Source: a bacterium
GTDB lineage: Bacteria > Zhuqueibacterota > Zhuqueibacteria > Zhuqueibacterales > Geothermadaptataceae
Assembly (NCBI GenBank): GCA_024275575.1
Contig: JAJRYV010000100.1
Coordinates: 1-38,394, forward strand
DNA length: 38,394 nt
Direction of reading: 5' to 3'
Shown piece after piece: positions 1,942-28,681 of this stretch. Positions within the stretch are counted from its first letter, which is position 1. Each line of letters opens with the position of its first letter. The notes under the pieces are model-generated. The model was not told the DNA's origin. It saw nothing but the letters and a program-made list of their open reading frames with translations, and did not search any database. A program made the position numbers and the translations under genes.

Positions 1942-1944
1942 TTA
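1942..1944 (-). other. In-frame TAA that splits the beta-helix gene
   Basis: The TAA ends the beta-helix frame after GWIAE. The same frame then continues without another stop through NIYYNLEQGD into the CARDB/DUF1349 part, giving a combined frame 610-3648 of about 1012 residues. A single change (AAA to TAA) would explain it. It could be a true nonsense mutation, a sequencing or assembly error, or a natural split. Confidence 0.7.
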
Positions 1945-3648
1945 CTCGGCAATCCAGCCGCGTGACATGTTGTCGAACCAGATGGCGACATTATCATTGA
2001 ACATGCCGGCCTTGACATCGTGGATGAGATTTCGCCGAATGACTGAATCATGCGTCAAACCGCTCGTGGTGATTGCACCGGAATCATCGGCACGTTCCTG
2101 CACGTGATGCACGTGATTGTATTCCACCCGGTAGCCACCGTTGATCACCTCCTCGAGATTACTCCATCCTCCGGCAGAAATAGCAAAACGGCCTAAATTT
2201 CGCGTGACCTCATTGCGGGAGATCACCGTATTTAAACTGTTGGTGGCCACTATGCTGGTGCCGCCGCAACGCTCGATATAATTCCCGGAAATCTGAGTCT
2301 GCTGAATGATCTCTGTCCAGTCTGCCGGGTGGGCATTGCCGCTGACATAAATGCCACCCTGTTCCGCTTCGCTGATAGCATTACCGAGAATTCGTGTATT
2401 ATAATTGCCTTTCAAAATATTAACAGCCCGGCCGCCAACGCCTCGAATGGTGCAATCGACGAGTTCGCAACTGTTGCTGTATTCCAATGAAATCGCAGCA
2501 TTCCCCGGGTTTGTCGCTTCGAAAGTCAGGCCGTAGAAGCGCAGATTGCGCACAGGACGGTCTTTTTCGCCTTGCACACCAACGAGATTTTCAAGCACGG
2601 GTACGGTCACATTTGCAGAGTTGGGGTCTGAAATCTTTTCCGGCGGAATAAACAAAAGCTGATTGAGTTGTTCATCAAAAAACCATTCACCGGGCGCATC
2701 GAGCAAAGCTTTGAGATTTTCAACATAATAACGCGGCGGCGCAACGACGATGCCTTCCTGCGGTTTCTGCAGATAAGCGATAGAATTTTCACGATCGATT
2801 CCGGAAATGGAATTGATGCCGGTATGCCAGCGCAGCAGCATGATGATGCGATTATTCTGCATATCAGGCCAGGGAAATAAATCCTGATCATTAAAAACAA
2901 AAAATTCCGTCGAAGTCGGTGTGGTCGCAGGGGTGAAATAACCTTCATTCGGTGTGCGAGCGAGGGTTTGCATTTTTCCGTTGGCCAGCATTTTTTCAGC
3001 GGTGAGGTCCCTTGTTTGTGCGAGCCAGAAATTCTGTGTTTTTATCCACTGTTTGATCAACCGGCCGCCGGAGATCACCGGTTTTTCGCCGGGAAAAGCA
3101 GCGTAGGTGACATAATAATCTTTCAACTTGTGATACTCGAAAGCACCGGTCGGCAGCTTGGTTTCACAGCGTTCACCACCATCTGCGGGTAAAAATGACA
3201 GAGGTTCAGAGAGCGAATAATAACCTTCACGGATAAAAACGAGGATGTCTTTGCCGCTGCCGTATTCATTGTCTGAGCCGATAAACCGAATATCAAGGGG
3301 CGGCTCTTTGATTTTATAAACACGCTGTTTCAGCTCAAATACCGCCTGTTGTGCGCGGGCAATCGTGGCAAAGGGGCCGTCTGAATTTGCTGCATTGGGC
3401 TCGGGCAAAGTCCCGGACCAGCGATCATTACCGTTCGTTGCAACATAAAAATCAGCATCTTTTCCAGCGGCGGAAAACTTGCTCCATTTTTCACCACGAA
3501 ACAATTTGCCCTGGGCAAAAGCGCTATGCGAAACACGGCCAAAATCAAAAAATACAAGGACAAGCAACATGCTCAAACTGAGCGGTAAAAAGCGCAGCAG
3601 GTTCAGCAGACGGCTGGTTTTAATTGTTTGGTTTGGAAGTTTTTTCAT
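1942..3648 (-). CDS. Secreted right-handed parallel beta-helix protein (truncated by in-frame stop)
   Basis: The 568-residue product starts with a long signal peptide (hydrophobic core LSLSMLLVLVFFDF, likely cleavage after AFAQ). The opening DFYVATNGNDRWSGT, followed by GPFATIARAQQAV, is the typical start of pectate-lyase-like beta-helix proteins. The second half carries many short rungs (for example ISGNYIERCGG, ISRNEVTRNLG, VEYNHVHHV, IRRNLIHDV). Such proteins commonly bind or cleave polysaccharides outside the cytoplasm or in the periplasm; no specific catalytic residues can be assigned. GAGGAAAG before the ATG gives a good ribosome binding site, and the gene follows nagA by 23 bases. The frame ends in the middle of the beta-helix and its logical continuation lies beyond the TAA at 1942, so the product is probably incomplete. 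Confidence 0.8.
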   Translation of the reverse strand: MKKLPNQTIKTSRLLNLLRFLPLSLSMLLVLVFFDFGRVSHSAFAQGKLFRGEKWSKFSAAGKDADFYVATNGNDRWSGTLPEPNAANSDGPFATIARAQQAVFELKQRVYKIKEPPLDIRFIGSDNEYGSGKDILVFIREGYYSLSEPLSFLPADGGERCETKLPTGAFEYHKLKDYYVTYAAFPGEKPVISGGRLIKQWIKTQNFWLAQTRDLTAEKMLANGKMQTLARTPNEGYFTPATTPTSTEFFVFNDQDLFPWPDMQNNRIIMLLRWHTGINSISGIDRENSIAYLQKPQEGIVVAPPRYYVENLKALLDAPGEWFFDEQLNQLLFIPPEKISDPNSANVTVPVLENLVGVQGEKDRPVRNLRFYGLTFEATNPGNAAISLEYSNSCELVDCTIRGVGGRAVNILKGNYNTRILGNAISEAEQGGIYVSGNAHPADWTEIIQQTQISGNYIERCGGTSIVATNSLNTVISRNEVTRNLGRFAISAGGWSNLEEVINGGYRVEYNHVHHVQERADDSGAITTSGLTHDSVIRRNLIHDVKAGMFNDNVAIWFDNMSRGWIAE

Positions 3649-3671: not shown

Positions 3672-4583
3672 TTATTCAATCACTTTCAGCGGATTTTCGA
3701 ACATCATTTTTCTCGCTTCTGCCGCAGAACAGCCCAGATGCTGCAGCAAATTATCATAACTCTGTTGCATGGAAACAGCGGAACCGGCGAAATGACTTTT
3801 CCCTGCTTCGCGAACGATACGGTCAGCGCCGATTTCAACATTGAGATGTGCCAGTGTGTAGTTTCCGGGCGGCGCGGCAGCGGCAGCCATGGCATCACTG
3901 ACAATGATCGTTCTGTCATAACCGGCAACGGTCAGATAATTTCGCAAAACAAAAAACGGAATATGAATCCCGTCAGCGATAAAACAAAGCCGCAGGTTAT
4001 CCTTCAGAGCAAGCGCCCGCATGATGATGTTATCGTGCCGTTGCAGGTTCGCCGGGCAGCCGTTACCGAGGTGGGTAAACATGCTCAGCCCGGCAGCGGC
4101 GGCATTTCGCAGAGTTTCCAGATCGGGATCACAATGCCCGGCGGCAACGACAAGTTTTTGTTCAGCGAGAAAGCGGGTCACGGTAAAAGCGGAATCCATT
4201 TCCGGCGCCAGGGTCACGAGCTGAATCAATCCATCAGCAGCATCTAACAATCTTTTCATCACCTCAGGATTTGCGGGCCGGATCGCCGCCCGGGAATGCG
4301 CGCCGTAAAAACCCGGCTGCGGATTTAAAAACGGCCCTTCGAGGTGGATTCCACGAATGATCTTTTGCGCCAGTTCATCCTTGCGGCGGAACCTGACCAG
4401 CCGCTGCAGACGCTGTTGCATCGTTTCGCTTTCGGCGGTAATGATCGTTGCGAGAATAGCGCTGACGCCATCTTTTTGCAATTGTACACATGCGGCGTTT
4501 AACATCTCCGGCGACAAACGATCGCTGTTGAAATCCACACCGGCATAACCATTCACCTGCAGATCGATAAATTGCGGTTTCAA
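3672..4583 (-). CDS. nagA: N-acetylglucosamine-6-phosphate deacetylase, minimal TIM-barrel form
   Basis: NagA removes acetate from GlcNAc-6-phosphate to give glucosamine-6-phosphate in the cytoplasm. The protein keeps the barrel signatures: QVNG (Q9, N11, where other amidohydrolases have HxH), HLEGPFLNP (E82, metal), AAGHCDP (H150), FTHLGNG (H171) and SDA (catalytic D230). The start is best placed at a TTG whose last two bases fall in the nagB stop codon (CATTGA), giving 303 residues; longer readings to 4742 would overlap nagB by about 160 bases. Typical NagA proteins have about 380 residues, with a small beta-sandwich made from both ends. Here both ends are missing, since the protein begins at FIDLQVNG and ends at ENPLKVIE. 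It belongs to the 'LGNG' subgroup and is translationally coupled to nagB. Confidence 0.85.
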   Translation of the reverse strand: MKPQFIDLQVNGYAGVDFNSDRLSPEMLNAACVQLQKDGVSAILATIITAESETMQQRLQRLVRFRRKDELAQKIIRGIHLEGPFLNPQPGFYGAHSRAAIRPANPEVMKRLLDAADGLIQLVTLAPEMDSAFTVTRFLAEQKLVVAAGHCDPDLETLRNAAAAGLSMFTHLGNGCPANLQRHDNIIMRALALKDNLRLCFIADGIHIPFFVLRNYLTVAGYDRTIIVSDAMAAAAAPPGNYTLAHLNVEIGADRIVREAGKSHFAGSAVSMQQSYDNLLQHLGCSAAEARKMMFENPLKVIE

Positions 4584-5323
4584 TGCACTGACCCCGGTGG
4601 CAGCAATGAAGCGGAATCTCGATCGAGAAAAAGATAAACCGCCGCATGGCGGCGTAGAATTGAAGCCGGAACTTCCGCAGAAATTTCGGATAGCATGGTC
4701 TTTTGTACAGCAACGGCCTTGCGCTTTTCCGGCACTGTGCAAATGATGTTTTTCGCCAGTAGAATCTGTCTGATGGACATGCTGATGGCTGTCTGCGGTA
4801 CATCTTGAAATTGTTTAAACCAGCCTTCAGCCATTTGTTGTCGCCGGCAGGCCTCGTCGAGTTCGACGATGATGTACGGCTCTTCAGTGTCAAAATCAGC
4901 CGGCGGATCGTTGAAAGCGAGATGACCATTCTCACCGATACCGATAAAAGTGACGTCGATCCGGCGTCTACCAATCAGTTGCGCCAGACGTTTGCATTCA
5001 GCGCGGGATTCATTTTCGCCATCGACAAAATGAAACTCTTTCAGCGGTAATAAATCAACAAATCGTTCTTTGAGATATTTACAAAAGGAAGCCGGATGCG
5101 CACTTGAAATACCGATATACTCATCGAGATGGAATCCACACACGCGCTGCCAGTCCAGTTTCTCTTTAACGAGACAGGACAGCATTTCAAACTGTGAAGC
5201 GCCGGTAGCGACGACGATATTCGCATCACCCTTTTCGGCCAAAACACAGCGAATGAGCTGTGCCCCTTTTGCCGCAGCCTTTCTGCCCGATTCTTCTTTA
5301 GTTTTTGCTAAAATGACTTCCAT
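4580..5323 (-). CDS. nagB: Glucosamine-6-phosphate deaminase
   Basis: NagB converts glucosamine-6-phosphate to fructose-6-phosphate and ammonia, the step after NagA. The 247-residue protein shows the SugarP_isomerase fold with VVATGASQ (phosphate-binding loop), HLDEYIG (D67, equivalent to the catalytic D72 of the E. coli enzyme) and GIGENGHLAFNDP (H134). In this last motif the position of E. coli D141 is N132 and E148 is D139, a variant seen in many NagB-like proteins, so the exact substrate is a little less certain. The ATG at 5323 follows an AGG 6 bases away. A TTG at 5344 is an alternative start adding 7 residues. The stop overlaps the nagA start, and the symporter gene ends 32 bases upstream. 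Confidence 0.88.
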   Translation of the reverse strand: MEVILAKTKEESGRKAAAKGAQLIRCVLAEKGDANIVVATGASQFEMLSCLVKEKLDWQRVCGFHLDEYIGISSAHPASFCKYLKERFVDLLPLKEFHFVDGENESRAECKRLAQLIGRRRIDVTFIGIGENGHLAFNDPPADFDTEEPYIIVELDEACRRQQMAEGWFKQFQDVPQTAISMSIRQILLAKNIICTVPEKRKAVAVQKTMLSEISAEVPASILRRHAAVYLFLDRDSASLLPPGSVH

Positions 5324-5355: not shown

Positions 5356-7053
5356 TCAAGCGCCGATGCCGGCGGCATAAAACCCCAGGAAAAGGATGAT
5401 GAGCACCAGCAAAACAGCGTAACCAAAACCTGCGATATCGATTTTATAATGTTTGAATTTAAATTTTTTCTTTAATTGTAATAAATCTACAAGAATCAGA
5501 CTATGACCACGCTCGAGCAGTGATTCAGAGCTATCTTCTTTTGTGCTGCTTTCGCCTTCGAGAATGATTTCAACGCCGGCCGCTTTTAGTTTATGTTCCT
5601 CACCGACCGGTGTGCGCAATAGGGTGTAAAAATCATTGAGCGCCTCCTCCGGCTCCGACTGCGTCAGCAAAGTAGCGATGATAAATGCAATAACTCCAGC
5701 GGGCAAATAGACCGCAATTTGTGCCGGCAGCGACCAGTTCAAGCTCCAGGCAAAATAATCTCCGGTATACAACATGGCGCCAAAAGAAACGAGCAGGCTG
5801 GCGTAAACGCCGTAGCGGTTTGCGCGCCGCCAGATGACGGCCATCCAAAATCCGATACCGAAAAAGGCGGTAAATTTCCACATGATTTTCAATCCGGCGA
5901 CAACATTGGGGATGAACAGGCCAAACAATACACCACCGATAACCACCACCACCGAGGAAAGTCTTGCCACCATCAGATAGTGTTGTTCACTTTCCTTCGG
6001 TTTGTGATATTTACGGTAAAAATTGCGCGTGAACAGGGCTGCGCCCCCGACCATGAAGGCGTCGCAGGTCGACATGACCGCGGCAGCCATGGAAGCGATC
6101 ATCAGGCCGACCAGACCTTGCGGCAAGAGATTCATCACGGCCATACCAAAGGCCATCTCACGGTTTGCCTCGGTGAGCGATGGGTACAAAAAAGCGGCAA
6201 AAACACCGATAAAAGCCCAGCCCAGGGTAGCGACTCGTTTGAGAAAATTGCCGTAAGTCCAGCCGGTGCGGCAACTCATTTCGGTCTTTCCCGAGCCGCC
6301 GACCGCCATGTGGTGCGGTTGCACGACGATGCCCACCAGACCATTGACGATCACCATGGTGATAAAAAACAGGGTCACTTCTTTAGGTGCGATAAAACTG
6401 AACATGTGCTCCGGCAAACCCTGATGAATCGCTGCCAGGCCGCCTGCAGCGCTGATGGCAAAAGGAATCATCAAAAAGGAAAGGATGAGAATAAACATGC
6501 CCTGGATCAGGTCCGTAATCACGGCTGCGACGAGGCCGCCGAGAACACTGTAAAGCACAAAGAGAACGGTCATGACGATGACGACAGCATCGGTGGGCAG
6601 CGCGCCAAGCGTGATGGCGTCGATCGTCGTGCCGGTGCCTTTCAGCATGATGCCGGTGTTGAGCGCAAAAAACATCAGGCCCATGACGGCATAGATTGCA
6701 CCGAGATTGCGGCCGTAGCGTTTTTCAAAAAAATCACCGAGAGTGATATAACGCAGGCGGCGATAAATTGGCGCGATCAACCAGTAAAACGGAGTGGTAA
6801 ACATCCACAGCCACTGATACCAGATACCGGCCAGCCCGATTTGCGAGCAAGCGCCAGCAACGGCAACGGGCTGATCCGTGTGAGTTCCGGCGCCGAGGGC
6901 GTGCCCGATCATCAATAATTTACCGAATCGCCGATTGCCCATAAAATAATCACCGGTAGATTTCACTGATTTATAGGTCATGGCGCCGATGATCGTCAAA
7001 CCGATAAAATAGGCGGCAATTACGATTAAATCGAGAAGGGATAAACCAAACAA
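5356..7053 (-). CDS. Sodium:solute symporter (SSS family)
   Basis: This 565-residue inner-membrane protein belongs to the sodium/solute symporter family (LeuT fold), with about 13 to 14 hydrophobic helices. It begins with LLDLIVIAAYFIGLTIIG and carries the family-typical STGDYFMGNRRFGKLLMIGH after the first helix, TLGDFFEKRYGRN, and the helix-5 region VLGGLVAAVITDLIQG. A hydrophilic segment at about residues 470-530 precedes the last helix. Related transporters carry sugars, sialic acid or amino acids with sodium. The position between the DUF1080 fusion gene and nagB suggests uptake of an amino sugar or a product of glycoside cleavage, as an inference. The gene starts 13 bases after the stop of the upstream gene, so it is part of the operon. 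Confidence 0.9.
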   Translation of the reverse strand: MFGLSLLDLIVIAAYFIGLTIIGAMTYKSVKSTGDYFMGNRRFGKLLMIGHALGAGTHTDQPVAVAGACSQIGLAGIWYQWLWMFTTPFYWLIAPIYRRLRYITLGDFFEKRYGRNLGAIYAVMGLMFFALNTGIMLKGTGTTIDAITLGALPTDAVVIVMTVLFVLYSVLGGLVAAVITDLIQGMFILILSFLMIPFAISAAGGLAAIHQGLPEHMFSFIAPKEVTLFFITMVIVNGLVGIVVQPHHMAVGGSGKTEMSCRTGWTYGNFLKRVATLGWAFIGVFAAFLYPSLTEANREMAFGMAVMNLLPQGLVGLMIASMAAAVMSTCDAFMVGGAALFTRNFYRKYHKPKESEQHYLMVARLSSVVVVIGGVLFGLFIPNVVAGLKIMWKFTAFFGIGFWMAVIWRRANRYGVYASLLVSFGAMLYTGDYFAWSLNWSLPAQIAVYLPAGVIAFIIATLLTQSEPEEALNDFYTLLRTPVGEEHKLKAAGVEIILEGESSTKEDSSESLLERGHSLILVDLLQLKKKFKFKHYKIDIAGFGYAVLLVLIILFLGFYAAGIGA

Positions 7054-7066
7054 AAGTCACTCCAGG

Positions 7067-8533
7067 TTAAAGTCGTTTAATCCGCAAGTTACGAAATGAG
7101 ATGGGGTTGCCGTGATCCTGCAATCCAATAAATCCAGCACGCGGCATGTCTTTATATGCGGTTTTGAATTTATTCTTTGTGCCGTCCGGATTTTTCCCCG
7201 CTTCGGTCCAGCGGTTCAAATCCATATCGATAATTTGCACACCGTTTTGCACGACGTAGATTTTATTCTCTTTACAAGTGATGGTATAACGATTCCACTC
7301 GCCCGCTTTTTTAACCACATTTGCCGCGGGCCCGAGACAGTCATAAATCGAACCGCAGGAGCCATATTTACTGCCGTCCGTCGATTCGTGAATTTGCACT
7401 TCGATCGAGGTATGCACATAATTATCGAGATCGCCGGCGCGGAGAAATACGCCGCTATTGGCATTCTCCGACAGTTTAAATTCGAGGTCGAGAATAAAAT
7501 CTCTATATTTCTCTTTCGTCCAGATATAACTGCCGCCGAGCAATGCCAGAATGCCGTCTTCTCCGAGCTGCCACGTTCCGGGCTTGAATTGTGCATTCGA
7601 CAAATTGGCGGCAAACAGGTCGCGCCAGCCGGAATCGTTCAATTCCCGCGCTGCTGCATTAAAAAATGCGATGCTGCGACGAATTGCCGGCAGCGATTTC
7701 AGCCAGTCATGTTCATATTCGATGCAAACCGTGCCACGATATTTTTGCCGGTGCATCTCTGCCATGATCGCTTTCAAATCGCCAATTCCTGTTCCCCATG
7801 CAACATCGTGGGCTTTGCGAACACCAAATTCATTGAGATCGCCAAAATGAAAATCGAGAATACGCCCCTGTAGCTTTTGCAATGCTGCGACCGGTTTGAT
7901 ACCGGAACGCATCCAGTGGCCGATATCAGCACAAACACCGATGAGCGGGCTGCGGTCTTTGATGATTTCCCATGTTTTTCCAGGGTCCCAGTAATGCGAA
8001 GGTTTGGGGTGGTTATGAACTGCGGCTTTAATCTGATATTCACCGCATAATTTTTCGATCACATCCCAGGCGGCCTCATCCTTCGGTTCGGTGATGATCA
8101 ATTCGATGCCCATATCTTTGGCAAAATCAAATATTTTCCGATTCGCGGACTCATCGGTGGACATGCCGACAACACCATAATTCACCAGCCGCAAACCTTT
8201 GCTGTTGAGGAAATCTTTGACTTCCTGCCGCTTTGCCGCCGAAAGGTTATGGTCAAATTTCAAGTCAGCATCGGCTGAACTCAATTTTTGTCCCGGAAAA
8301 GCCTGAATCCAGGTCAAACCCAGATCGGCGGTTTTTTCCACGGCTTCATAAAATGTATAGCGATTGAATGTCCACAATTGCATACCGAGGCGCCAGCCGT
8401 CGTAAGCGTCGATCTTGGCATGTGAGGCTGTTGGTAAGGTTGAATTGGTTGATTTGTCTTGCGTTTCAGCGCCAGGTGATGTGCAGGATAAAAATACCAG
8501 GCACAGATAAATCATCAGGGCTTTTAATTTCAT
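7067..8533 (-). CDS. Lipoprotein fusing a sugar isomerase/epimerase TIM barrel to a DUF1080 (3-keto-glycoside hydrolase type) domain
   Basis: The start at 8533 follows GGAGGAAGAG and opens a lipoprotein signal peptide ending in FLSC (C17). Longer upstream readings are not supported. Residues ~45-300 form an AP-endonuclease-2/xylose-isomerase-like TIM barrel (GMQLWTFNRYTFYEAVEKTA, AAVHNHPKPSHYWDPG, GVCADIGHWMRSG, FHFGDLNEFG, GTVCIEYEHDW, giving the usual metal-binding H/E/D residues). Residues ~310-488 are a DUF1080 domain (GVFLRAGDL, SIEVQIHES, GEWNRYTITCKENKIYV, and the end signature GFIGLQDHGNPISFRNLRI). In Bacteroides, separate proteins of these two families act after a Gfo/Idh oxidoreductase to cleave 3-keto-glycosides. 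Here they are joined and exported. The oxidoreductase gene lies 19 bases upstream, so a shared pathway is likely. The exact substrate is unknown. Confidence 0.88.
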   Translation of the reverse strand: MKLKALMIYLCLVFLSCTSPGAETQDKSTNSTLPTASHAKIDAYDGWRLGMQLWTFNRYTFYEAVEKTADLGLTWIQAFPGQKLSSADADLKFDHNLSAAKRQEVKDFLNSKGLRLVNYGVVGMSTDESANRKIFDFAKDMGIELIITEPKDEAAWDVIEKLCGEYQIKAAVHNHPKPSHYWDPGKTWEIIKDRSPLIGVCADIGHWMRSGIKPVAALQKLQGRILDFHFGDLNEFGVRKAHDVAWGTGIGDLKAIMAEMHRQKYRGTVCIEYEHDWLKSLPAIRRSIAFFNAAARELNDSGWRDLFAANLSNAQFKPGTWQLGEDGILALLGGSYIWTKEKYRDFILDLEFKLSENANSGVFLRAGDLDNYVHTSIEVQIHESTDGSKYGSCGSIYDCLGPAANVVKKAGEWNRYTITCKENKIYVVQNGVQIIDMDLNRWTEAGKNPDGTKNKFKTAYKDMPRAGFIGLQDHGNPISFRNLRIKRL

Positions 8534-8552
8534 CTCTTCCTCCAATGCAATT

Positions 8553-9971
8553 TTACAGCTTCCAGCCGTTCTGATATTCACGCATGACAAATGCGTTTGC
8601 TTCCGGCAGGTTGGTGAATTCACCTTTTTCGCCATCCCATTCCAGTTTCATGTTTTTCGGCGCCATGCGAATGGCGATATTGCCCAGCATCATCGTTTCC
8701 GTCAGTCTCGAGGCATAACCAAAATTTGAAGTCGTCTGTTTGCCTTCTTTGATGCACTGCACCCATTCCTGATGGATGCCCGGCGAACGCGGGATCGTTT
8801 TTTCGGGTAATTTGTAGCTTTTCATGAAAGATTCCGGAACCAGTCGAGGATTCGAGCCATAGCAACCGCACATCAGCAAACCTTTGTCACCGATGAACAG
8901 CACACCACCGTCGGAATCGCCCATCTTGCGACCGGGTTCGATGCCTTCCGGCCTTTTCGGCATGATACCGCCATCAGACCAGGTGAGTTTAACCGGCGGC
9001 AGCCCCTCTCTCGCCGGGAAATCATAGCTGATTCTTGAAGCTACCGGCCAGGATTCACTATTGAATTTCGTCGAACTGGCCTGAATCGTGGTTGGATATT
9101 TCATTTTCAGGGCATGGTAAGGAATATCGAAAATATGGGCGCCCATGTCACCGAGAGCGCCGGTGCCGAAATCACACCAGGCCCGCCAGGCCCAGGGGGC
9201 ATACGCCGGATGATAGGGCCGATATGGCGCCGGGCCAATCCACAAATTCCAATCAAGCGAGGACGGCACAGAGGGAATTTCCATTGGTCTGTCCATACCC
9301 GTTTTCCAGACCGGGCGATTGGTCCAGCATTCAACTTGCCGAACTTCACCAATAGCGCCGTCTTCCAGCCATTCACAGATTAGCCGGATGCCTTCGCCGG
9401 CATGTCCCTGATTGCCCATCTGGGTGATCACGCCGGCCTTTTTCGCTGCTTCGCGCAGCCTGCGCGCTTCACCGACACAATAGGTTAAAGGTTTCTGTAC
9501 GAATGCATGTTTGCCGCGTTTGATTGCCGTCATCGCAGCGATGGCGTGAAAATGATCGGGTGTGCTCACAGTCACCGCATCGATATCTTTTTCTTTATCT
9601 AACATCACACGAAAATCTTTGTATTTTCTGGATTTTTCGAGAGGATTTTTACCATCGCCATTGCCCGCGGCTTTTTGCTCATCAGCGTATTGTTGCGCTC
9701 GTCGCAGGGTATCGGCCATTTTCACGTCGTCGACATCACAGAGCGCGACGATGTTTTCGGTCGAAACCGCTGCGATATCCGAACGCCCTTTGCCACCGAC
9801 GCCAATTGCAGCAATATTAAGCTTGTCGCTCGGCGCGACGAAACCGGGACCGCCAAGTACATGGCGTGGTACGATCATAAATGCGGCTGAGGCTAAAGCC
9901 GATGATTGCAGAAATTCACGCCGGCTGACCCCGGGATTTTGGGAAACGGGTTTCACTTTTTTGGTCTGCAT
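8553..9971 (-). CDS. Tat-exported Gfo/Idh/MocA family oxidoreductase
   Basis: The 472-residue protein is an NAD(P)-dependent sugar oxidoreductase of the Gfo/Idh/MocA family. A twin-arginine signal is clear (SRREFL at residues 16-21, hydrophobic core LASAAFMIVP), so it is probably exported folded with its cofactor. The Rossmann fold starts at LNIAAIGVGGKGRSDI. DAVTVSTPDHFHAIAAMTAI is followed by FVQKPLTY, where the lysine of the family's EKP motif is kept (Q replaces E). The C-terminal domain begins around GEVRQVECWTNRP. Family members of this type oxidise C3 of glycosides. GGGAG before the ATG gives a good ribosome binding site. The 164-base region upstream holds a palindrome and a hairpin, so this gene may also start its own transcript. 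Confidence 0.9.
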   Translation of the reverse strand: MQTKKVKPVSQNPGVSRREFLQSSALASAAFMIVPRHVLGGPGFVAPSDKLNIAAIGVGGKGRSDIAAVSTENIVALCDVDDVKMADTLRRAQQYADEQKAAGNGDGKNPLEKSRKYKDFRVMLDKEKDIDAVTVSTPDHFHAIAAMTAIKRGKHAFVQKPLTYCVGEARRLREAAKKAGVITQMGNQGHAGEGIRLICEWLEDGAIGEVRQVECWTNRPVWKTGMDRPMEIPSVPSSLDWNLWIGPAPYRPYHPAYAPWAWRAWCDFGTGALGDMGAHIFDIPYHALKMKYPTTIQASSTKFNSESWPVASRISYDFPAREGLPPVKLTWSDGGIMPKRPEGIEPGRKMGDSDGGVLFIGDKGLLMCGCYGSNPRLVPESFMKSYKLPEKTIPRSPGIHQEWVQCIKEGKQTTSNFGYASRLTETMMLGNIAIRMAPKNMKLEWDGEKGEFTNLPEANAFVMREYQNGWKL

Positions 9972-10135: not shown

Positions 10136-11404
10136 TCACCTTCCTTCATTGATTTTCTGCTGTTTTTCAAGCACTTTTTCGAGTTTACGCACCGTCAGGC
10201 AGGTGCCGCGAACCGTATGATAAAAAACCTTCCAGCTCGTACCCATATAATCCCAGATCGGTTTGCCACCGGTATCGAGCAATGCCCGCCATTCGCCCAA
10301 CTCGTGATTGATCATTTTGCTGAAAACGAAATCGTGGATATTTCTGAAAGCCTGCAAGTATTTATCATCCCGGGTAAGCAGCCAGGCATCGAGAAAACCG
10401 ACGAGGGCCTCGGCTTGCTGCCAGAATTCTTTCGTCGATTCGGTCACCGGCCCCGAGCGCAATCCTTCGACAAAAAGCCCGCCCTGCTGCCAGTCGACGC
10501 CAAACTTATAAGTATGTTCAAAGATTGGCTGCACGCGCGCCAAATGCTTCCCGGGTGAAATTCCGAGAATAGTCAATGCGTGTAAATAGAGCCAGGCGAG
10601 TTCAATGTTGTGGCCGTAAGAGGTGATGTCCGGTGATTTGCCGTCATCATCGAAGCGATCGCGTCCCCACACCGTATCTAGCTCGATATTAGCGATCGCC
10701 TGCCAGTCTTCGGTGAACATGGAAATACCGGTACCGGTTTCCGGATCTACCATCTTGGCAAAAATCAATTCGATAATCGTTTCCAGCGCCTGCTGGTGTT
10801 TTTTTTCACCTGTCAGTTCAAACAAGGTCGTGTATGCCTCCATCAGATGCATGTGCACATCAAGCGATTTGTGGGTGTTGTATGTTGCATGCGCTTTTTT
10901 CAAATTAAACTGCCGGTCAAAATGTTCGAAATAGCAGCCGTTGACGGAATCAGCCGCTTTTTCCTGCAACAGATCAAAAATTCGGATCGCTTCATTTTTA
11001 GACTGCTCGTCGCCGGTTAGCAGGCTGTATTCAGCAAGCGCATAAATTAAAAAACTGTGACCGTAAACGATTTTATTGGTATCGAGAATGCGGCCGTCCT
11101 CATCGACGATCCAGAAATAACCATCATATTTCTCGTCACGAAAATATTTGAAAAGAAAATCGATGCCCTGCTGCAGCGCTGCTTCGGCGCCGGGCCAGTC
11201 AAAACCGAGCCGTCTTGCATGTGCAATGCTAAAGATAGAGCGGCATTGCGCGAGAAAGGATTTCTCGGTAATTTCAGAGCGCTTGCCGAAACGATCATAG
11301 TTGGTTTGAAAGCCGCCGTATTTTTCATCGACGGCGCGGGCGATCCAAAACGGGATGAGTTTTTCCTGCAAATATGTTTGTGTTTTTTCGAGGTAGTTTT
11401 GCAT
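10136..11404 (-). CDS. AGE family sugar epimerase/isomerase
   Basis: The 422-residue protein has the alpha/alpha-barrel pattern of the N-acylglucosamine 2-epimerase (AGE) superfamily: FWIARAVDEKYGGFQTNYD at the N-terminus, KSFLAQCRSIFSIAHARRLG, SYGHNIELAWLY with a likely catalytic histidine, and a C-terminal YHTVRGTC with the second conserved histidine. The YGHNIE wording is closer to the cellobiose/mannobiose 2-epimerase branch than to classical GlcNAc 2-epimerase, so the substrate is left open. In this context it could feed ManNAc-type sugars into NagA/NagB or epimerise a disaccharide. It follows the MFS gene by 52 bases and is likely co-transcribed with it. Confidence 0.87.
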   Translation of the reverse strand: MQNYLEKTQTYLQEKLIPFWIARAVDEKYGGFQTNYDRFGKRSEITEKSFLAQCRSIFSIAHARRLGFDWPGAEAALQQGIDFLFKYFRDEKYDGYFWIVDEDGRILDTNKIVYGHSFLIYALAEYSLLTGDEQSKNEAIRIFDLLQEKAADSVNGCYFEHFDRQFNLKKAHATYNTHKSLDVHMHLMEAYTTLFELTGEKKHQQALETIIELIFAKMVDPETGTGISMFTEDWQAIANIELDTVWGRDRFDDDGKSPDITSYGHNIELAWLYLHALTILGISPGKHLARVQPIFEHTYKFGVDWQQGGLFVEGLRSGPVTESTKEFWQQAEALVGFLDAWLLTRDDKYLQAFRNIHDFVFSKMINHELGEWRALLDTGGKPIWDYMGTSWKVFYHTVRGTCLTVRKLEKVLEKQQKINEGR

Positions 11405-11456: not shown

Positions 11457-12965
11457 CTACGTAATTTCCTCCGGCCTGTATCCGCCTTGTGAACGGAAAT
11501 ATAAAATGAGAATCAGATAGCCAATCAGCATGATTAAAGGAAAGATCGCCACTGTCGCAAGTGCATTTTGTTTCGCTTTGCTGGTGATCGTTGTCAGCAG
11601 CGATTTTTCTTCATCGCTCACCTGTGCGAGTTTTTGCTGGTCAAGCGGCCGGTATTTACCGAAAACACTGTTTTTTCCTGCGCCAACCACCTGCTGATGC
11701 AAAGTCGAATTTGTGCTCAGGAGCTCGCGATCGATCTCCTTATCCTGAATATTACCGAGGAATGCAGCGCCGATAACCCCGACGCTGAGCATGCCGACGC
11801 CCGCGATAGCGTTGAGCGTTAGTGCACCGCCGCGGGGAAATCGTTCTGCGACAACACCGAGCATCGTCGGCCAGAAAAATGTTTTGCCCAGGCCATAGAG
11901 TGTCGCCGATAAAAATATGGTAAAACCGAATGAGCGCGAAAGTGCGATCAATCCGATAGAAGCGATAATTGAACTGATCGCCAGCAAACCGAGGGGAGAA
12001 AATTTTTCGATTATCGGTCCGGCGGAGAAACGCAAAACCATCATGATGAAAGCAGTATAAACCAGCACCCAGCCGCCCTGCAAGCCGAGTTCAGCCATGA
12101 CCGGCGTCATCAGATCGGAAATCCAGCTATCGGTGCCGAGCTCGGTCGTAGCCAGCGGAATCATAATGAGCAGGAGAAAGAAGAACATCGGCCGGCCCAG
12201 GGAGCGCACATAAAGTCCGTAGCCGATGAGCAGAACAAGTGCAATCGTCAACTCGACCAAACCGGACCAGTCGAAAACCCGTCCGACTTCGCGTACCATG
12301 AGCCCGACGACGATAATGGCGCTCAGGATACCGGCTTCCTGCAGCATTGCTTTAAACGAAACGCCGGCCAAAACCCGCTCGTGCACAGGAAATTTACGCC
12401 GGAACATCATGATGCCATAAGCCACTGTGGGAATGAGAATGAGCCCGACTTTCCAGCGCCAGTCCATTTCCACCCCCATGCCCAGGGCCAATAAACCACC
12501 GAGCACCATGCCGCCGGGCCAGCCGGCGTGTAAAATATTCAGCCATTTGGTTTTTTCTTTGGAAAAAAGCGTCGCCACAACAGGATTGATCACCGCTTCG
12601 ACGGTACCGCTGCCGAGTGAAACGATAAAGGTGCCGATGTACAGCATCCAGTAGCCGTTGGCAAAAATGAGCAAAAAAACGGAAGAAAAATGGCAAACAA
12701 AAGCGAAGGCCATGGCTTTGCCGTAGCCGATTTTATCGATGACAAAACTGAAGAGCACGATACTGATGGCGAATGGCCACAGACCTACCCCAAAGAGCTC
12801 CCCTTTTTGCGTTTCGCTTAAATTGAATTGTACGCCCCAATCCGCGATGACCTGCGTGCGAATAATAAAGCCGAAAGCCGTGGCGATGAGCGCGATGAAA
12901 CACGCCCAAAACAACCATTTCATTTCATCGGAAGAACCGGTCTGTCCCTCGTTTTGTTTGCGCAT
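11457..12965 (-). CDS. MFS transporter
   Basis: This 502-residue inner-membrane protein has about 12 hydrophobic helices and the look of a major facilitator superfamily permease. After the first helix comes WGVQFNLSETQKGELFGVGLW, then SFVIDKIGYGKAMAFA (the loop 2-3 region), an amphipathic central segment (residues ~195-215) and a second half with RFSAGPIIEKFSPLGLLAIS. A hydrophilic insert of about 60 residues (QDKEIDRELLSTNSTLHQQ onwards) sits before the last helix, which is unusual. The substrate is probably a sugar, judged from the neighbouring epimerase. The ATG at 12965 is preceded by AGGG and GGAG. It is the first gene of the catabolic cluster and has a recognisable promoter. Confidence 0.88.
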   Translation of the reverse strand: MRKQNEGQTGSSDEMKWLFWACFIALIATAFGFIIRTQVIADWGVQFNLSETQKGELFGVGLWPFAISIVLFSFVIDKIGYGKAMAFAFVCHFSSVFLLIFANGYWMLYIGTFIVSLGSGTVEAVINPVVATLFSKEKTKWLNILHAGWPGGMVLGGLLALGMGVEMDWRWKVGLILIPTVAYGIMMFRRKFPVHERVLAGVSFKAMLQEAGILSAIIVVGLMVREVGRVFDWSGLVELTIALVLLIGYGLYVRSLGRPMFFFLLLIMIPLATTELGTDSWISDLMTPVMAELGLQGGWVLVYTAFIMMVLRFSAGPIIEKFSPLGLLAISSIIASIGLIALSRSFGFTIFLSATLYGLGKTFFWPTMLGVVAERFPRGGALTLNAIAGVGMLSVGVIGAAFLGNIQDKEIDRELLSTNSTLHQQVVGAGKNSVFGKYRPLDQQKLAQVSDEEKSLLTTITSKAKQNALATVAIFPLIMLIGYLILILYFRSQGGYRPEEIT

Positions 12966-23403: not shown

Positions 23404-26307
23404 TTAAAATTTAAAATTTAATCCGAATTGTATGAGCCTGGGACGTGAATACCAGGATGGATTATAATTGGCTTCATCAAGGGTGAATTCACCCAATTGT
23501 CTGATCCGGTAATTGCGTAGACGCTCCTGTTCGGGGAGCCGGGCCTGTGGACCGGCATGACCGGTTATTGCATTGACTCTGTTTTCATCGAGATGATTAA
23601 AAATATTAAAAATATTGGCATAAATCCCCCAGCGCATACTGCCGTATTTGAATGATTTCAAAGCTTTTAAATCCACTGTCCAACGCAGTGGTTTGCGACC
23701 ATTGTTATCCCACCAGCCTGAGGGAATACTAATGCTGGGGTTCAATGTTGCCGGGGTGTAAGGCAGACCGGAGCCCAGTTGGCCAAGCAGGCTGAAATTC
23801 CATCCTTTTGCCGGTCGCCAGCTTGCCGAACCGTTTAGACTATGCGATTGGTCCCAATCGAGATAATTGATGCGTTTGGTTGCCAGGGTATAGGCCCCTC
23901 TACCCGGTCCTGATAATATTTGTACGTCAACTGCAGCGTCAGGAGAAGAAGCAGTGCCCTTAGCTTTCATGTAAGTATAGTCAAGCCCGGCATTGAGTTT
24001 TCCATTAGCAGCACGATAATCTAACGCCAGGGTGACACCGGAGGCACTGCCATATTCCTTGTTGATATAACGATTAAAGGAAGTCGCATTGCTAAGGGTA
24101 AGGATTTCAAGGCCGAGTAAATCATGGATATCTTTATAAAAAACAGATAATTCCATAGCAACGGCATCTGTTAATTCCTGTTGCAGGCCAATCTCATATT
24201 GGATGGTTTTTTCCGGCTTAAGATTTGGATTTCCAATGGTTGTGTTGGCAATACTAAACTGGTTGTAATGGGGCAAAACCGGATTCTGATACATTTTTTC
24301 ATAACTTGGTATTTGGAAAAAATGGCCATAGGAAAGCCGTAAAGCGCCTTTTGAAGAAATGGGGAATGACAATCCAACTCTTGGGCTGAATTGATATTTG
24401 TCACGAGCCGGTTTGTAATACTCGTCTGCTCCGACAAACTCGGGAAAGACGATACTGTAATCAGGGGCATAGCGATCTTTGGGCTGAAAAAAATCCAGGC
24501 GAAGGCCGGCATTGAGAATGATTTCCCCCATGCTCAATGTGGTTTGAAAATAACCGGCCCCCTCGACCGGATAACGGTTATAATTAACGTAAAACTGATC
24601 ATCTGCAGCGCTGTCGGCATTGGTTTCGCGCAGGCGAATATTACCATATTCATAATCACGTGTGGCATCACGAAAATGATTCCACGTCAACTCAAGCCCG
24701 ACGATCTCTGATTGTAAATAAGGGAATTGCAGAGTTTCATATCGGAGCATCTCACGCATCGGTGCATTTTTATAATGTAAACGATAATTTTTCGCTTCAA
24801 ATCCAGCTTTTAACTCAAGAACATTATTGATCTGCCAGGTAAGGTCGCCATTAAACAGGTTAATCGATTGATCGAACCATTCCCGATCCCATGAAGCGAC
24901 GCCGCCAAAGTCATACCCGGTATTTAATCCAGGGTCCCAGGAATTCACTGATGTGATTTGATAACGCTGGTCAAGCGGGTCTTCATACATATAGTCCATT
25001 TCTTCATTTTTCTGTAAAGAATAACGCAGATTGTAGAAGAGATTATCCTTTGGCGCATGGGTTAAAACAAGCAAATGCGTTATGTTGTCTTCATAATCAG
25101 TTTCAAGACCGCCCGGTGTGAATTTCCAGGAATTGTTATATCTCTGCCCCACAGATGTGCTATAAAAAACATTATATGCCAAGCTCAACGAAGGTTTCGG
25201 TTGGTAAACAATTTTGGTGTTCAGATTGATCGTTTTATTCCAATCCATATTCACGATTTTACCATCACCAGTATGCAGGGAATCCGGGAGTGGGATCATC
25301 ACCGGGTCATCAGGATCAAAAGTAGCGCGGTACCATTCGCGGTAAACTTCAATTTCCCAGCCATCTTCAGGCCGATAGCGACGCTCTCCATTGAGCCAGC
25401 CATCGGAATCCACCAACCGGCCATTAAAATAAAATCCCAGTTTGCCCATCTTTTTTGGAATTGGCAGTGGGCCGGAAACAGAAAATTTAAACTCATTTTC
25501 ATCTACCGGATCAAAACCATCCAAGCCGATATATTGTGCTTTATTGGGAGAATAATATCCCCCGACAATGGCATCAAAAGTAGCAGAGAATTTATTCTCC
25601 GGTACTTTCGTTACGATATTGATAATGCCTGACTGAACAGCTCCGTATTCAGCATTGAACGTCCCGGAAATAACCTGCAATTCCTTGATGAAATTATTTT
25701 CGATATTGACGTTGGAGCCGCCACCCTGATTAAAAGTATTGGTCACAGGCACACCATCGATGAGATAGGCAACCTCACGAGAACGCCCGCCGCGAAAGTG
25801 TAAATTGCCACCAGCATCTGCGATAACACCAGCCTGCAGCTGAATAATCTCATTCATCGTCGAAACCGGCAGCATCTCGATCTCCTCCTGACCAACATAG
25901 GATGCTGTGTTGGTACGGTCGAACTCTACGGCCTCACGCTCAGCAACCACGGTCACCTCTTCTCCTTCAATAACCGCTGCATCGAGTTCGATATGCACTT
26001 GAACTGAACGGTCGGAAAAAACACGAAGGTCGGTGATATTTGCCGTCCGGTAGCCGATCATTGAGATACGCAATGTATATCTTCCCGGCTGCAAATTGAT
26101 AATCAGAAATTTACCATCCTGATTTGTGGCTGCCCCGAAGTTCGTTCCAACCACCAGCACGTTAACACCAGGCAAAACCGTGCCGGAGGCTTTATCTATA
26201 ACGGTACCGGATATCTTTCCTGTCGTCCCACTGAAAACAGATTTTACACACAGCATCAGTATCAATATGAAAAGACTTTGGGGGGTGAATCGCTTCAGAC
26301 AATTCAT
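23404..26307 (-). CDS. TonB-dependent receptor with N-terminal carboxypeptidase-regulatory-like domain
   Basis: The 967-residue outer-membrane receptor starts with a signal peptide (LFILILMLCVKSVFSG). Residues ~30-115 form a carboxypeptidase-regulatory-like domain (GKISGTVIDKASGTVLPGVN, GYRTANITDLRV). The plug follows (EMLPVSTMNEIIQLQAGV, HFRGGRSREVAYLIDGVPV, NAEYGAVQSGIINIVTK). The rest is a TonB barrel with periplasmic turns and a final strand PRLIQFGLNFKF ending in phenylalanine. It resembles SusC-like importers, but no SusD gene is adjacent; a PorV-like protein follows instead. GAGGAA precedes the ATG. A LacI-like site lies 113 to 128 bases upstream, overlapping the 3' end of the regulator gene. 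Confidence 0.92.
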   Translation of the reverse strand: MNCLKRFTPQSLFILILMLCVKSVFSGTTGKISGTVIDKASGTVLPGVNVLVVGTNFGAATNQDGKFLIINLQPGRYTLRISMIGYRTANITDLRVFSDRSVQVHIELDAAVIEGEEVTVVAEREAVEFDRTNTASYVGQEEIEMLPVSTMNEIIQLQAGVIADAGGNLHFRGGRSREVAYLIDGVPVTNTFNQGGGSNVNIENNFIKELQVISGTFNAEYGAVQSGIINIVTKVPENKFSATFDAIVGGYYSPNKAQYIGLDGFDPVDENEFKFSVSGPLPIPKKMGKLGFYFNGRLVDSDGWLNGERRYRPEDGWEIEVYREWYRATFDPDDPVMIPLPDSLHTGDGKIVNMDWNKTINLNTKIVYQPKPSLSLAYNVFYSTSVGQRYNNSWKFTPGGLETDYEDNITHLLVLTHAPKDNLFYNLRYSLQKNEEMDYMYEDPLDQRYQITSVNSWDPGLNTGYDFGGVASWDREWFDQSINLFNGDLTWQINNVLELKAGFEAKNYRLHYKNAPMREMLRYETLQFPYLQSEIVGLELTWNHFRDATRDYEYGNIRLRETNADSAADDQFYVNYNRYPVEGAGYFQTTLSMGEIILNAGLRLDFFQPKDRYAPDYSIVFPEFVGADEYYKPARDKYQFSPRVGLSFPISSKGALRLSYGHFFQIPSYEKMYQNPVLPHYNQFSIANTTIGNPNLKPEKTIQYEIGLQQELTDAVAMELSVFYKDIHDLLGLEILTLSNATSFNRYINKEYGSASGVTLALDYRAANGKLNAGLDYTYMKAKGTASSPDAAVDVQILSGPGRGAYTLATKRINYLDWDQSHSLNGSASWRPAKGWNFSLLGQLGSGLPYTPATLNPSISIPSGWWDNNGRKPLRWTVDLKALKSFKYGSMRWGIYANIFNIFNHLDENRVNAITGHAGPQARLPEQERLRNYRIRQLGEFTLDEANYNPSWYSRPRLIQFGLNFKF

Positions 26308-26409: not shown

Positions 26410-27441
26410 CTATATAAAAATATTAGCGTTTGCATTCTGATTTTTAGGTGAACAGCATGATTGGCCGTGAATCAACTCAGGTTTGAGTGTTACTTTTTGC
26501 ACGTTTTTATAGCCGGTTTTTTCGATTTTACCGATCAAAAGCATGGCTGCATTTGTTGCAATGAATTCAACAGGCTGGGAGATACAGGTGATTTTTGGCC
26601 GAATAATATCGCTTGACGGTAATTGATCAAAAGCAACGATGGAGATATCACCGGGTATTTTCAGGTTTAAATCATAGATCGCTTTGATAGCGCCGACGCT
26701 GATCAAGTTATTGCCGAGAAAAACAGCCGTGGGTCTATCTCCTTGCTGGAATAAGTCAAGAGCGGCGTCGTATCCGGCGTGCTGCATCGGCGCACATTCA
26801 CGAATCAGTGCATCATCGAGAGGAATGTTGTGATGTTTGAGCGCTTTGCAATAGCCGCGGTAGCGTTCGGCATAGGGGAACAATGCCCCGGGACCATTGA
26901 TGAAAGCGATATTACGATGCCCGAGTTTGATTAAATGCTCCATCGCAGCAACGGCGCCGGAACAATGATCCACAGTGATATAATCAGTCTCCACATCGGC
27001 AAAACGCCTATCGACGAGCACAAATGGGGTTTTCGTATGTTTTAAGCGGATAACCGAATTGACGGAAATGGGAAAAATAATGATACCATCAACGTTGCGG
27101 GTGAGTAATAGATCGAGGTATTTGCTTTCCTTTTCGCTGTCTTCTTCAGAATTACAAAGCAGGATATTGAAATTGAGATAATTCATATATCCTTCAATCG
27201 TATGAATACAGCTGCTGAAAAAGGGGTTTTTTATATCCGGGATGATGACGCCGATAATGAAGGACTTATTTGCCGCAATAGATTTGGCGATTTTATCGGG
27301 CTGGTAATTCAACTCTTTCATCGCAGTAATGATTTTTAATTTGGTCTTCTCTGCAACTTTTTGCGGTGTGTTCAAATATCGGGAAACCGACATCGTTGAA
27401 ACTTGAGCATGTTTTGCAATATCGCTTATACGGATCGCCAT
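26410..27441 (-). CDS. LacI family transcriptional regulator
   Basis: The start at 27441 gives a canonical LacI-type helix-turn-helix at residues 2-48 (IRISDIAKHAQVSTMSVSRYLN, then KIITAMKELNYQPDKIAKS). Residues ~58-325 form the periplasmic-binding-protein-like effector domain (IGVIIPDIKNPFFSSCIHTI, PFVLVDRRFADVETDYITVD, HLIKLGHRNIAFINGP, AVFLGNNLISVGAI). The total of 343 residues is normal. Longer readings to 27552 add sequence that does not fit the family. It lies between the DUF1080 gene and the TonB receptor gene, both on the same strand, and probably responds to a sugar. Three related palindromic sites in the window may be its operators. Confidence 0.93.
   Translation of the reverse strand: MAIRISDIAKHAQVSTMSVSRYLNTPQKVAEKTKLKIITAMKELNYQPDKIAKSIAANKSFIIGVIIPDIKNPFFSSCIHTIEGYMNYLNFNILLCNSEEDSEKESKYLDLLLTRNVDGIIIFPISVNSVIRLKHTKTPFVLVDRRFADVETDYITVDHCSGAVAAMEHLIKLGHRNIAFINGPGALFPYAERYRGYCKALKHHNIPLDDALIRECAPMQHAGYDAALDLFQQGDRPTAVFLGNNLISVGAIKAIYDLNLKIPGDISIVAFDQLPSSDIIRPKITCISQPVEFIATNAAMLLIGKIEKTGYKNVQKVTLKPELIHGQSCCSPKNQNANANIFI
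26420..26435 (-). promoter_or_regulatory. LacI-type operator candidate upstream of the TonB receptor gene
   Basis: The minus strand reads ATGCAAACGCTAATAT: the left half ATGCAAACG is identical to the site at 16913-16928, while the right half is degenerate (13 of 16 positions agree). It overlaps the last codons of the lacI-type gene, so it could be a coding coincidence, but its distance to the receptor start (113-128 bases) matches the other sites. Confidence 0.35.
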
Positions 27442-27569
27442 TCGTTCTCTCGCGACGTTAAACAAGCATAAAACAAAAATCGATTTATTAAGAGTGTGAA
27501 TTGAAAACATTAACAAACTACATGAAATCAAACAAAAACACAACCCGGTCACAAATTATTTTACATTGA

Positions 27570-27616: not shown

Positions 27617-28681
27617 TTATTTTTCACGAACAGCTTTACCAGTATGGCCGGTGAAAGTGTAATACAGTGCCGTTGGTAAAGCATCATCTGCAAAAGAAAA
27701 CCGAACATCGATGGCGGTAAAACGTGCTTTGAACAATTCTTTTGATTGCGGTAATAATTCGAATCGGCGATTGCCATGGGCCAGTAACCAGAGTTTGCCT
27801 CCTCGCAATTCAATTTTATGCACACCTTTTTTTTCTTTCTTGTAGGTGCCGACATATTTTTGCAATACCGTCTCTTCAAGTTTAATTTTAGCCTGAACTG
27901 CTGTTGCCGGTTTTTCTCTGATTTTTTCCAGTTCACGAAGCCAGATATTGCGATAGCGTACCGGATTCCCATGGTCCTGCAACGCCAGTGGCAGTTTGTC
28001 CGCATGATATGAATATTCTCGATATTTCAGCCAATCCGTCCCTCCCCATAGCGTGGCATTATCCTGCACTAAAACGCCATTGTGAAATACAGTCATACGC
28101 GCCTTTTGCACGACCTGACCCAAATTATTGAAACGTGGCCGGTGAAAAATAATATCATAAGATTGCCATTCTCCGGCAGGCCGGGAAGCGTTCACCTGCG
28201 GAGGATACTGTCCATAAATTGCGCCGGCCTGACCGTCCGGATAGGTTTTGTTATTATAACAATCCAGCACTTGCACTTCATAGCGACGCATGAGGAAAAC
28301 GCCGCTGTTCCCCCTGCCCTGAGATTCCCCTTTCGGTGGCGCCGGGGTTGCCCATTCGATATGCAGCTGGACATCACCAAAGCACTGTTTTGTTTGAATG
28401 TAACCACTACCTTTAACACATTCAAAATAATCATCTTGGCTGATCCATTTTGTCGGTTTCCCGTCCATGCCCTGCCAGTTATTAATACTTTCTTTACCGG
28501 AAAACAAAACAACAGCATCAGATGGCGGCAGGATGGGGAGATATTGTACCGGCGGAGAGATGACCTGAGGTTGAGGCCTGTTCAGGTCATGCACCCGCCA
28601 TTGGGTGCCATTTTGGGCAGTTAAAAAAACCGGGAAAAACAGGATGATCAAAAAATACCGTAGTGAAAAATAGCTGTTCAT
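27617..28681 (-). CDS. Secreted DUF1080 (3-keto-disaccharide hydrolase type) protein
   Basis: The 354-residue protein has a signal peptide (YFLIILFFPVFLTAQ). Residues ~50-255 form a DUF1080 domain of the concanavalin-like fold: AVVLFSGKESINNWQG, DVQLHIEWATP, RGNSGVFLMRRYEVQVLDCY, GEWQSYDIIFHRPRF and the end signature LALQDHGNPVRYRNIWLREL. The last ~80 residues (LQKYVGTYKKEKKGVHKIEL) resemble a DUF3471-like small beta-domain. DUF1080 proteins hydrolyse or process 3-keto-glycosides, or bind saccharides. It is the second DUF1080 domain in the window, next to a LacI regulator. GAGGAAGCGCTC precedes the ATG. A palindromic site lies 109 to 124 bases upstream. Confidence 0.85.
   Translation of the reverse strand: MNSYFSLRYFLIILFFPVFLTAQNGTQWRVHDLNRPQPQVISPPVQYLPILPPSDAVVLFSGKESINNWQGMDGKPTKWISQDDYFECVKGSGYIQTKQCFGDVQLHIEWATPAPPKGESQGRGNSGVFLMRRYEVQVLDCYNNKTYPDGQAGAIYGQYPPQVNASRPAGEWQSYDIIFHRPRFNNLGQVVQKARMTVFHNGVLVQDNATLWGGTDWLKYREYSYHADKLPLALQDHGNPVRYRNIWLRELEKIREKPATAVQAKIKLEETVLQKYVGTYKKEKKGVHKIELRGGKLWLLAHGNRRFELLPQSKELFKARFTAIDVRFSFADDALPTALYYTFTGHTGKAVREK

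Follow-up and report, generated by a model that had tools for sequence, protein, structure and literature searches.

Glycosides can be cleaved by a nonhydrolytic route in which C3 of a glycosyl residue is oxidized, the aglycone is eliminated, and water is added to the resulting glycal, and each step is known from separate enzymes (PMC7676230, PMC10628242, PMC13273386). In Bacteroides thetaiotaomicron, the BT2156-BT2159 operon encodes the dehydrogenase BT2158, the DUF1080 eliminase/hydratase BT2157, and BT2156, and a recent review states that BT2158 together with either BT2156 or BT2157 is sufficient for glucosinolate conversion in vitro (PMC12385236). Here we examine a locus on JAJRYV010000100.1 (assembly GCA_024275575.1), a complete contig of 38,394 nucleotides that is called the window below and that belongs to a Calditrichota genome. 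The locus carries adjacent genes for a Gfo/Idh/MocA oxidoreductase with a twin-arginine translocation (Tat) signal and for a lipoprotein in which a xylose-isomerase-like TIM barrel is joined to a DUF1080 domain. Judged from its sequence, this lipoprotein is a real, conserved fusion of two enzymes predicted to act in consecutive steps of the known pathway. No published description of a barrel-DUF1080 fusion was found in the literature searched.

Domains and Structural Relatives of the Gene Pair

The barrel and DUF1080 domains share one open frame, and both pass the gathering cut-offs of their Pfam families, with 71 bits against 31.1 for AP_endonuc_2 (PF01261) and 139.6 bits against 26.8 for 3keto-disac_hyd, the DUF1080 family (PF06439). 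An earlier reading of this DNA, hereafter the original prediction, had already placed the oxidoreductase and the fusion here, which Pfam and solved relatives confirm, although the start of the fusion had to be corrected. Translation most likely begins at position 8533, where a GGAGG site lies upstream and the encoded protein opens with a hydrophobic leader and the lipobox VFLS|C. A longer open reading frame from 8635 was rejected, as it would overlap the oxidoreductase gene by 83 nt and its N-terminus lacks an export signal.

The link to the Bacteroides pathway, also part of the original prediction, is borne out by homology of both proteins to its solved members. The oxidoreductase has the GFO_IDH_MocA domain and the associated C-terminal domains, and its closest solved structures are 8tdf and 8tdh. 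It would be expected to oxidize C3 of glycosides with nicotinamide adenine dinucleotide (NAD), and residues K160, D275, and H279 are invariant across 15 relatives. DUF1080 is the family of the 3-keto-glycoside eliminase/hydratase BT2157, and the DUF1080 half of the fusion matches 8tda and 8rr2 (E 6e-12) after 3imm. An AlphaFold2 model of the fusion has a mean pLDDT of 85.6, and its best Foldseek matches are 3p6l for the barrel and 3imm/3s5q, with the DUF1080 half also matching 8rr2/9fbe ("3-keto-glycoside eliminase/hydratase") and 8tda/8v31 ("3-keto-2-hydroxy-glucal-hydratase").

The gap between the two genes (8533-8553) is 19 nt in the window, and is about 320 nt (L010 9678-10001) and about 700 nt (L011 1428-2126) in two relatives from the same genus. 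The genome as a whole contains 10 matches to DUF1080, one contig carrying a 1134-residue open frame with two tandem DUF1080 domains (C127:18970-20124), and its matches to the BT_2158 model number 19.

Conserved Active-Site Residues

The putative metal-binding and catalytic residues, whose loss would have spoken against the original prediction, are intact in the fusion. An alignment of 19 fusions from four phyla reveals barrel invariants that include H173, N174, H175, D203, H206, H229, E272, and E274. The Agrobacterium tumefaciens 3-keto-glucoside eliminase AtOGE binds Mn2+ through His132, Asp163, His189, and weakly Glu233, which are located on strands 5 to 8, and uses His134 as the catalytic base (PMC10628242). 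In the fusion, H173-x-H175, D203, H229, and E272 match His132, His134, Asp163, His189, and Glu233 in order, with a spacing of 2/28/26/43 versus 2/29/26/44 in AtOGE; this comparison draws on ligand order and spacing, not on sequence homology. The HxH, D, H, and E residues lie on modeled strands 5 to 8, corresponding to the AtOGE strands, so that in the model the predicted metal ligands and a candidate catalytic histidine two residues after the first of them are arranged as in that enzyme.

Invariant positions of the DUF1080 half among the same fusions include N359, S360, G361, E378, Q380, and H474, and 4hxc, a structure from the BT2157 group, has the same residues at the NSG, E.Q, and H positions. 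H474 is 14 residues before the C-terminus, whereas the equivalent histidine in 4hxc is 15 before the end; in BT2157, which has 290 amino acids, a 4hxc-like distance would give His275. H474 may thus correspond to BT2157 His275, by way of its C-terminal distance through 4hxc rather than a direct BT2157 alignment. For a B. thetaiotaomicron lyase, presumably BT2157, the H275N substitution is reported to abolish hydration, and the variant has still been used for elimination (PMC13273386).

Export of Both Proteins

The original prediction suggested that the whole route may run outside the cytoplasm. The signals themselves are clear on both proteins: besides the lipobox of the fusion, the oxidoreductase carries the twin-arginine motif SRREFL at residues 16-21, and TatC is encoded in the genome. 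However, export as a new feature was rejected. The motif is present in 20 of 20 full-length Gfo/Idh relatives, with R17, R18, and F20 nearly invariant; signal peptides or lipoboxes occur whether or not the barrel is fused, and the stand-alone barrels from Bacteroidota have them too; and in 2022 a route with DUF1080 in the periplasm had already been put forward for Caulobacter (PMC9007349). Export is therefore best viewed as a general property of both protein families. Two unfused planctomycete barrels have a Tat-type leader (RDRRSFLKTSALAAAG; L024 2169-3332 and L025 1998-2999).

Proposed Reactions

From the domains, export signals, conserved active-site residues, and gene order, we infer the reactions, the roles of the domains, a closed cycle, and candidate substrates. 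With a probability of roughly 0.7, the gene pair provides an extracytoplasmic version of the known nonhydrolytic route for net glycoside hydrolysis, in which a single polypeptide carries both eliminase and hydratase. The Tat-exported oxidoreductase would first oxidize C3 of a glycosyl residue, after which the lipoprotein barrel would rely on a divalent metal that it binds and on a catalytic histidine to remove the C2 proton and expel the aglycone. The DUF1080 domain would then add water to the 2-hydroxy-3-keto-glycal, and might also perform elimination on alpha-linked substrates. The oxidoreductase would finally reduce the 3-keto sugar and so complete the redox cycle with the NAD that it keeps bound, and the freed monosaccharide could be imported by the SSF or MFS transporter encoded nearby and epimerized at C2 if needed. 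Free NAD is expected to be lacking outside the cytoplasm. For this reason, and by analogy with glucose-fructose oxidoreductase, a single exported Gfo/Idh protein is proposed to carry out both redox steps. The fusion would hold the reactive glycal between both active sites.

Several points weigh against this proposal. The activities of the fused proteins are predictions, and the closest solved relative of the barrel, 3p6l, is an uncharacterized structural-genomics entry. The oxidoreductase scores 526.7 bits against NF058561, the equivalog model for the BT_2158 glycoside 3-dehydrogenase, which is below the cut-off of 750, even though this is by far its top family; no gene of this genome reaches that cut-off. 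The assignment of each half to a step is tentative, since some xylose-isomerase-like barrels are epimerases or isomerases and one, LgdB2, is a hydratase. Furthermore, in a second fused clade, composed of Neomarinimicrobiota and other Calditrichota, Gfo/Idh genes are directly upstream of the fusion in none of nine loci with room for one.

The nagAB-like Genes and the Substrate

The original prediction also took the linkage to nagB and nagA as a sign that the module cleaves amino-sugar-containing glycosides, with released N-acetylglucosamine (GlcNAc) passing to NagA and NagB. The gene arrangement on which this idea was founded is real. The SSF, nagB-like, and nagA-like genes trail the fusion closely, with gaps of 13, 32, and -4 nt, and their order is retained in a locus of the same genus (L010/L093). 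The NagA-like protein keeps E82, H150, H171, and D230, and ROK kinases are encoded elsewhere in the genome. Also, NagA/NagB-like pairs without the fusion occur in other Calditrichota beside Nramp-like transporters, GH88, GH31, or an SGSH-type sulfatase, and the enzymes among these neighbors would fit amino-sugar glycans.

As a guide to the substrate, however, the linkage is weak. When nagAB-like genes were looked for around fusions in several phyla, they were found only in the genus of the window, and they are present at one of the 11 window-clade and Verrucomicrobiota loci that have at least 8 kb downstream, so linkage as a general attribute of the fusion was rejected. Both proteins fall under their family cut-offs: TIGR00221 gives the NagA-like protein 197 bits where 225.65 are required, covering profile positions 46-346 of 380 rather than the full length, and TIGR00502 gives the NagB-like protein 130 bits where 236.9 are required. 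The NagB-like protein has Asp at the usual catalytic Glu position, and both proteins retain most catalytic residues. A second, canonical NagB is encoded on contig C37, and the operon has no sugar kinase. Neutral hexoses are suggested by the epimerase gene; its product is closest to 8h1k, which we take to be a mannose 2-epimerase, and then to cellobiose 2-epimerases. Even if amino-sugar glycosides were cleaved, the amino sugar could be the leaving group rather than the oxidized residue.

Cleavage of amino-sugar-containing glycosides is thus unlikely, although it is slightly more probable than the other alternatives. Its fullest form, in which a lipid-anchored protein would pass an unstable 2-acetamido-3-keto-glycal between two unrelated active sites, with extracytoplasmic cleavage of the glycosides and delivery of GlcNAc through the symporter to the NagA/NagB-like proteins, appears improbable. 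The nagAB-like scores, the genus-restricted linkage, the second NagB, and the likeness of the epimerase together leave the substrate between glucosides, mannosides, and amino-sugar glycosides, with glucosides or mannosides at least as likely as the last.

The NagA-like protein (3672-4583) lacks both halves of the beta-sandwich and covers the barrel part, and its TTG start overlaps the nagB stop. Its same-genus relative is also short (a 313-aa open frame), while the frames of the copies in other Calditrichota span about 350-490 aa. In three other Calditrichota loci (L147, L148, and L149), NagA/NagB-like pairs flank an Nramp-like transporter, an unusual partner for amino-sugar catabolism; the family call is from Pfam for L147 and from sequence likeness for L148 and L149.

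Roles of the Two Domains

A somewhat more doubtful alternative is that the DUF1080 half serves solely as a carbohydrate-binding module (CBM) and leaves both elimination and hydration to the barrel. The definition of CBM66 overlaps DUF1080 (PMC5673643), and LgdB2 is a single barrel capable of both steps (PMC7676230). Nevertheless, the invariance of the six DUF1080 residues from N359 to H474 across the fusions, and the sharing of the NSG, E.Q, and H positions with 4hxc, argue for a catalytic domain. It is less probable still that the barrel epimerizes or isomerizes a released sugar while DUF1080 performs the cleavage, because the fold matches to tagatose 3-epimerase and IolE (E ~1e-11) and the weak NCBIfam matches to IolE and UlaE-type families are opposed by the HxH pair with AtOGE spacing and by the tight pairing with a glycoside 3-dehydrogenase gene.

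Distribution and Evolution of the Fusion

The search of other genomes that the original prediction had suggested recovered the fusion in Calditrichota, Planctomycetota, Verrucomicrobiota, Neomarinimicrobiota, and, rarely, Bacteroidota. Matches were found in 37 of 82 Calditrichota genomes, of which about 18 have the two domains in a single open frame. A 149-genome sample centered on Planctomycetota yielded three fusions, and a 198-genome sample centered on Bacteroidota yielded one, the barrel otherwise being mostly stand-alone. Of the 13 window-clade loci that extend far enough upstream, 12 have a BT_2158-like Gfo/Idh gene immediately before the fusion, as do all five Verrucomicrobiota loci.

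A phylogeny of 57 barrels calls for at least four changes (gains or losses) of the fused state. A single origin was therefore rejected, and fusion or splitting has recurred; the domain order, barrel and then DUF1080, is always identical.

A Phycisphaerae metagenome-assembled genome has seven tandem BT_2158-like Gfo/Idh matches upstream of one fusion gene (L016 3-9887), and similar tandem runs are present in L017 and L018. On a Neomarinimicrobiota contig, a Gfo/Idh protein 75% identical to that of the window adjoins a second-clade fusion (L028 11917-13275), which suggests cross-phylum transfer.

Because the fusion joins families acting on consecutive steps, it supports the idea that xylose-isomerase-like barrels and DUF1080 proteins work together as eliminase and hydratase. 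It also offers a compact enzyme suited to testing 3-keto-glycal channeling, and it extends the oxidative glycoside route, studied mostly in gut Bacteroides and in Agrobacterium, to Calditrichota, Planctomycetota, Verrucomicrobiota, and Neomarinimicrobiota.

Features of the Locus

The pair belongs to a run of nine genes on the reverse strand, extending from 12965 to 610 with intergenic gaps of -4 to 164 nt. Its order from 5' to 3' is MFS, sugar 2-epimerase, Tat Gfo/Idh, barrel-DUF1080 fusion, SSF, nagB-like, nagA-like, beta-helix, and DUF1349 (Table 1). Promoter and terminator scans scored no better than shuffles. A second DUF1080 protein in the window, with DUF3471 (27617-28681, reverse strand), neighbors same-strand genes (26410-27552 and 23404-26307) for a TonB-dependent receptor and a regulator of the LacI type, and may belong to the same uptake system.

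Table 1. Coordinates of the gene run and of domains within the gene pair
Feature	Position	Strand	Evidence
MFS transporter, first gene of the run	11457..12965	-	PF07690 74 bits
N-acylglucosamine 2-epimerase-superfamily sugar 2-epimerase	10136..11404	-	PF07221 171 bits; 8h1k E 3e-123, cellobiose 2-epimerases E 2e-45
Tat-signal Gfo/Idh/MocA oxidoreductase, BT_2158-like putative glycoside 3-dehydrogenase, 472 aa	8553..9971	-	NF058561 526.7 bits; PDB 8tdf/8tdh E 1e-109
Twin-arginine signal region (SRREFL...)	9849..9926	-	R17, R18, F20 nearly invariant among relatives; TatC in genome
Lipoprotein fusion, xylose-isomerase-like TIM barrel plus DUF1080, 488 aa	7067..8533	-	Pfam, solved relatives, model
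TIM barrel, residues 48-298, putative metal-dependent 3-keto-glycoside eliminase	7640..8392	-	3p6l E 1e-68; H173, H175, D203, H229, E272
DUF1080/3keto-disac_hyd, residues 301-488, putative 2-hydroxy-3-keto-glycal hydratase/alpha-eliminase; H474	7070..7633	-	139.6 bits; 3imm E 3e-40
Sodium:solute symporter (SSF)	5356..7053	-	PF00474 104 bits
Divergent NagB-like protein	4580..5323	-	PF01182 61 bits; 2bkv E 2e-33
NagA-like protein lacking most of the beta-sandwich, TTG start	3672..4583	-	TIGR00221 197 bits; 2vhl E 1.5e-34
Secreted beta-helix protein, 3' part of the run	1942..3648	-	PF13229 41 bits; retained in same-genus locus L010

Comparison with Known Systems

The locus shares related Gfo/Idh and DUF1080 enzymes with the BT2156-BT2159 operon, and the same chemistry is expected. 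BT2156 would be the separate counterpart of the fusion barrel. Unlike in that operon, the barrel and DUF1080 are fused here, the dehydrogenase is below the BT_2158 cut-off, and other transporters and nagAB-like genes are the neighbors. The A. tumefaciens AtOGE/AtHYD system likewise has a separate hydration step, but its eliminase and hydratase are separate proteins, and the pair lacks DUF1080 (PMC10628242). In the levoglucosan pathway, LgdA, LgdB1, LgdB2, and LgdC provide a similar succession of Gfo/Idh oxidation, barrel elimination, barrel hydration, and Gfo/Idh reduction, whereas the enzymes are separate and without DUF1080, and are not known to carry signal peptides (PMC7676230). In Caulobacter, LacABC and the DUF1080 protein CCNA_01705 have been proposed to perform periplasmic C3 oxidation and DUF1080 cleavage, as envisaged here; that system differs in relying on membrane-bound LacABC rather than a Tat-exported Gfo/Idh protein, and CCNA_01705 is a single-domain DUF1080 protein (PMC9007349).
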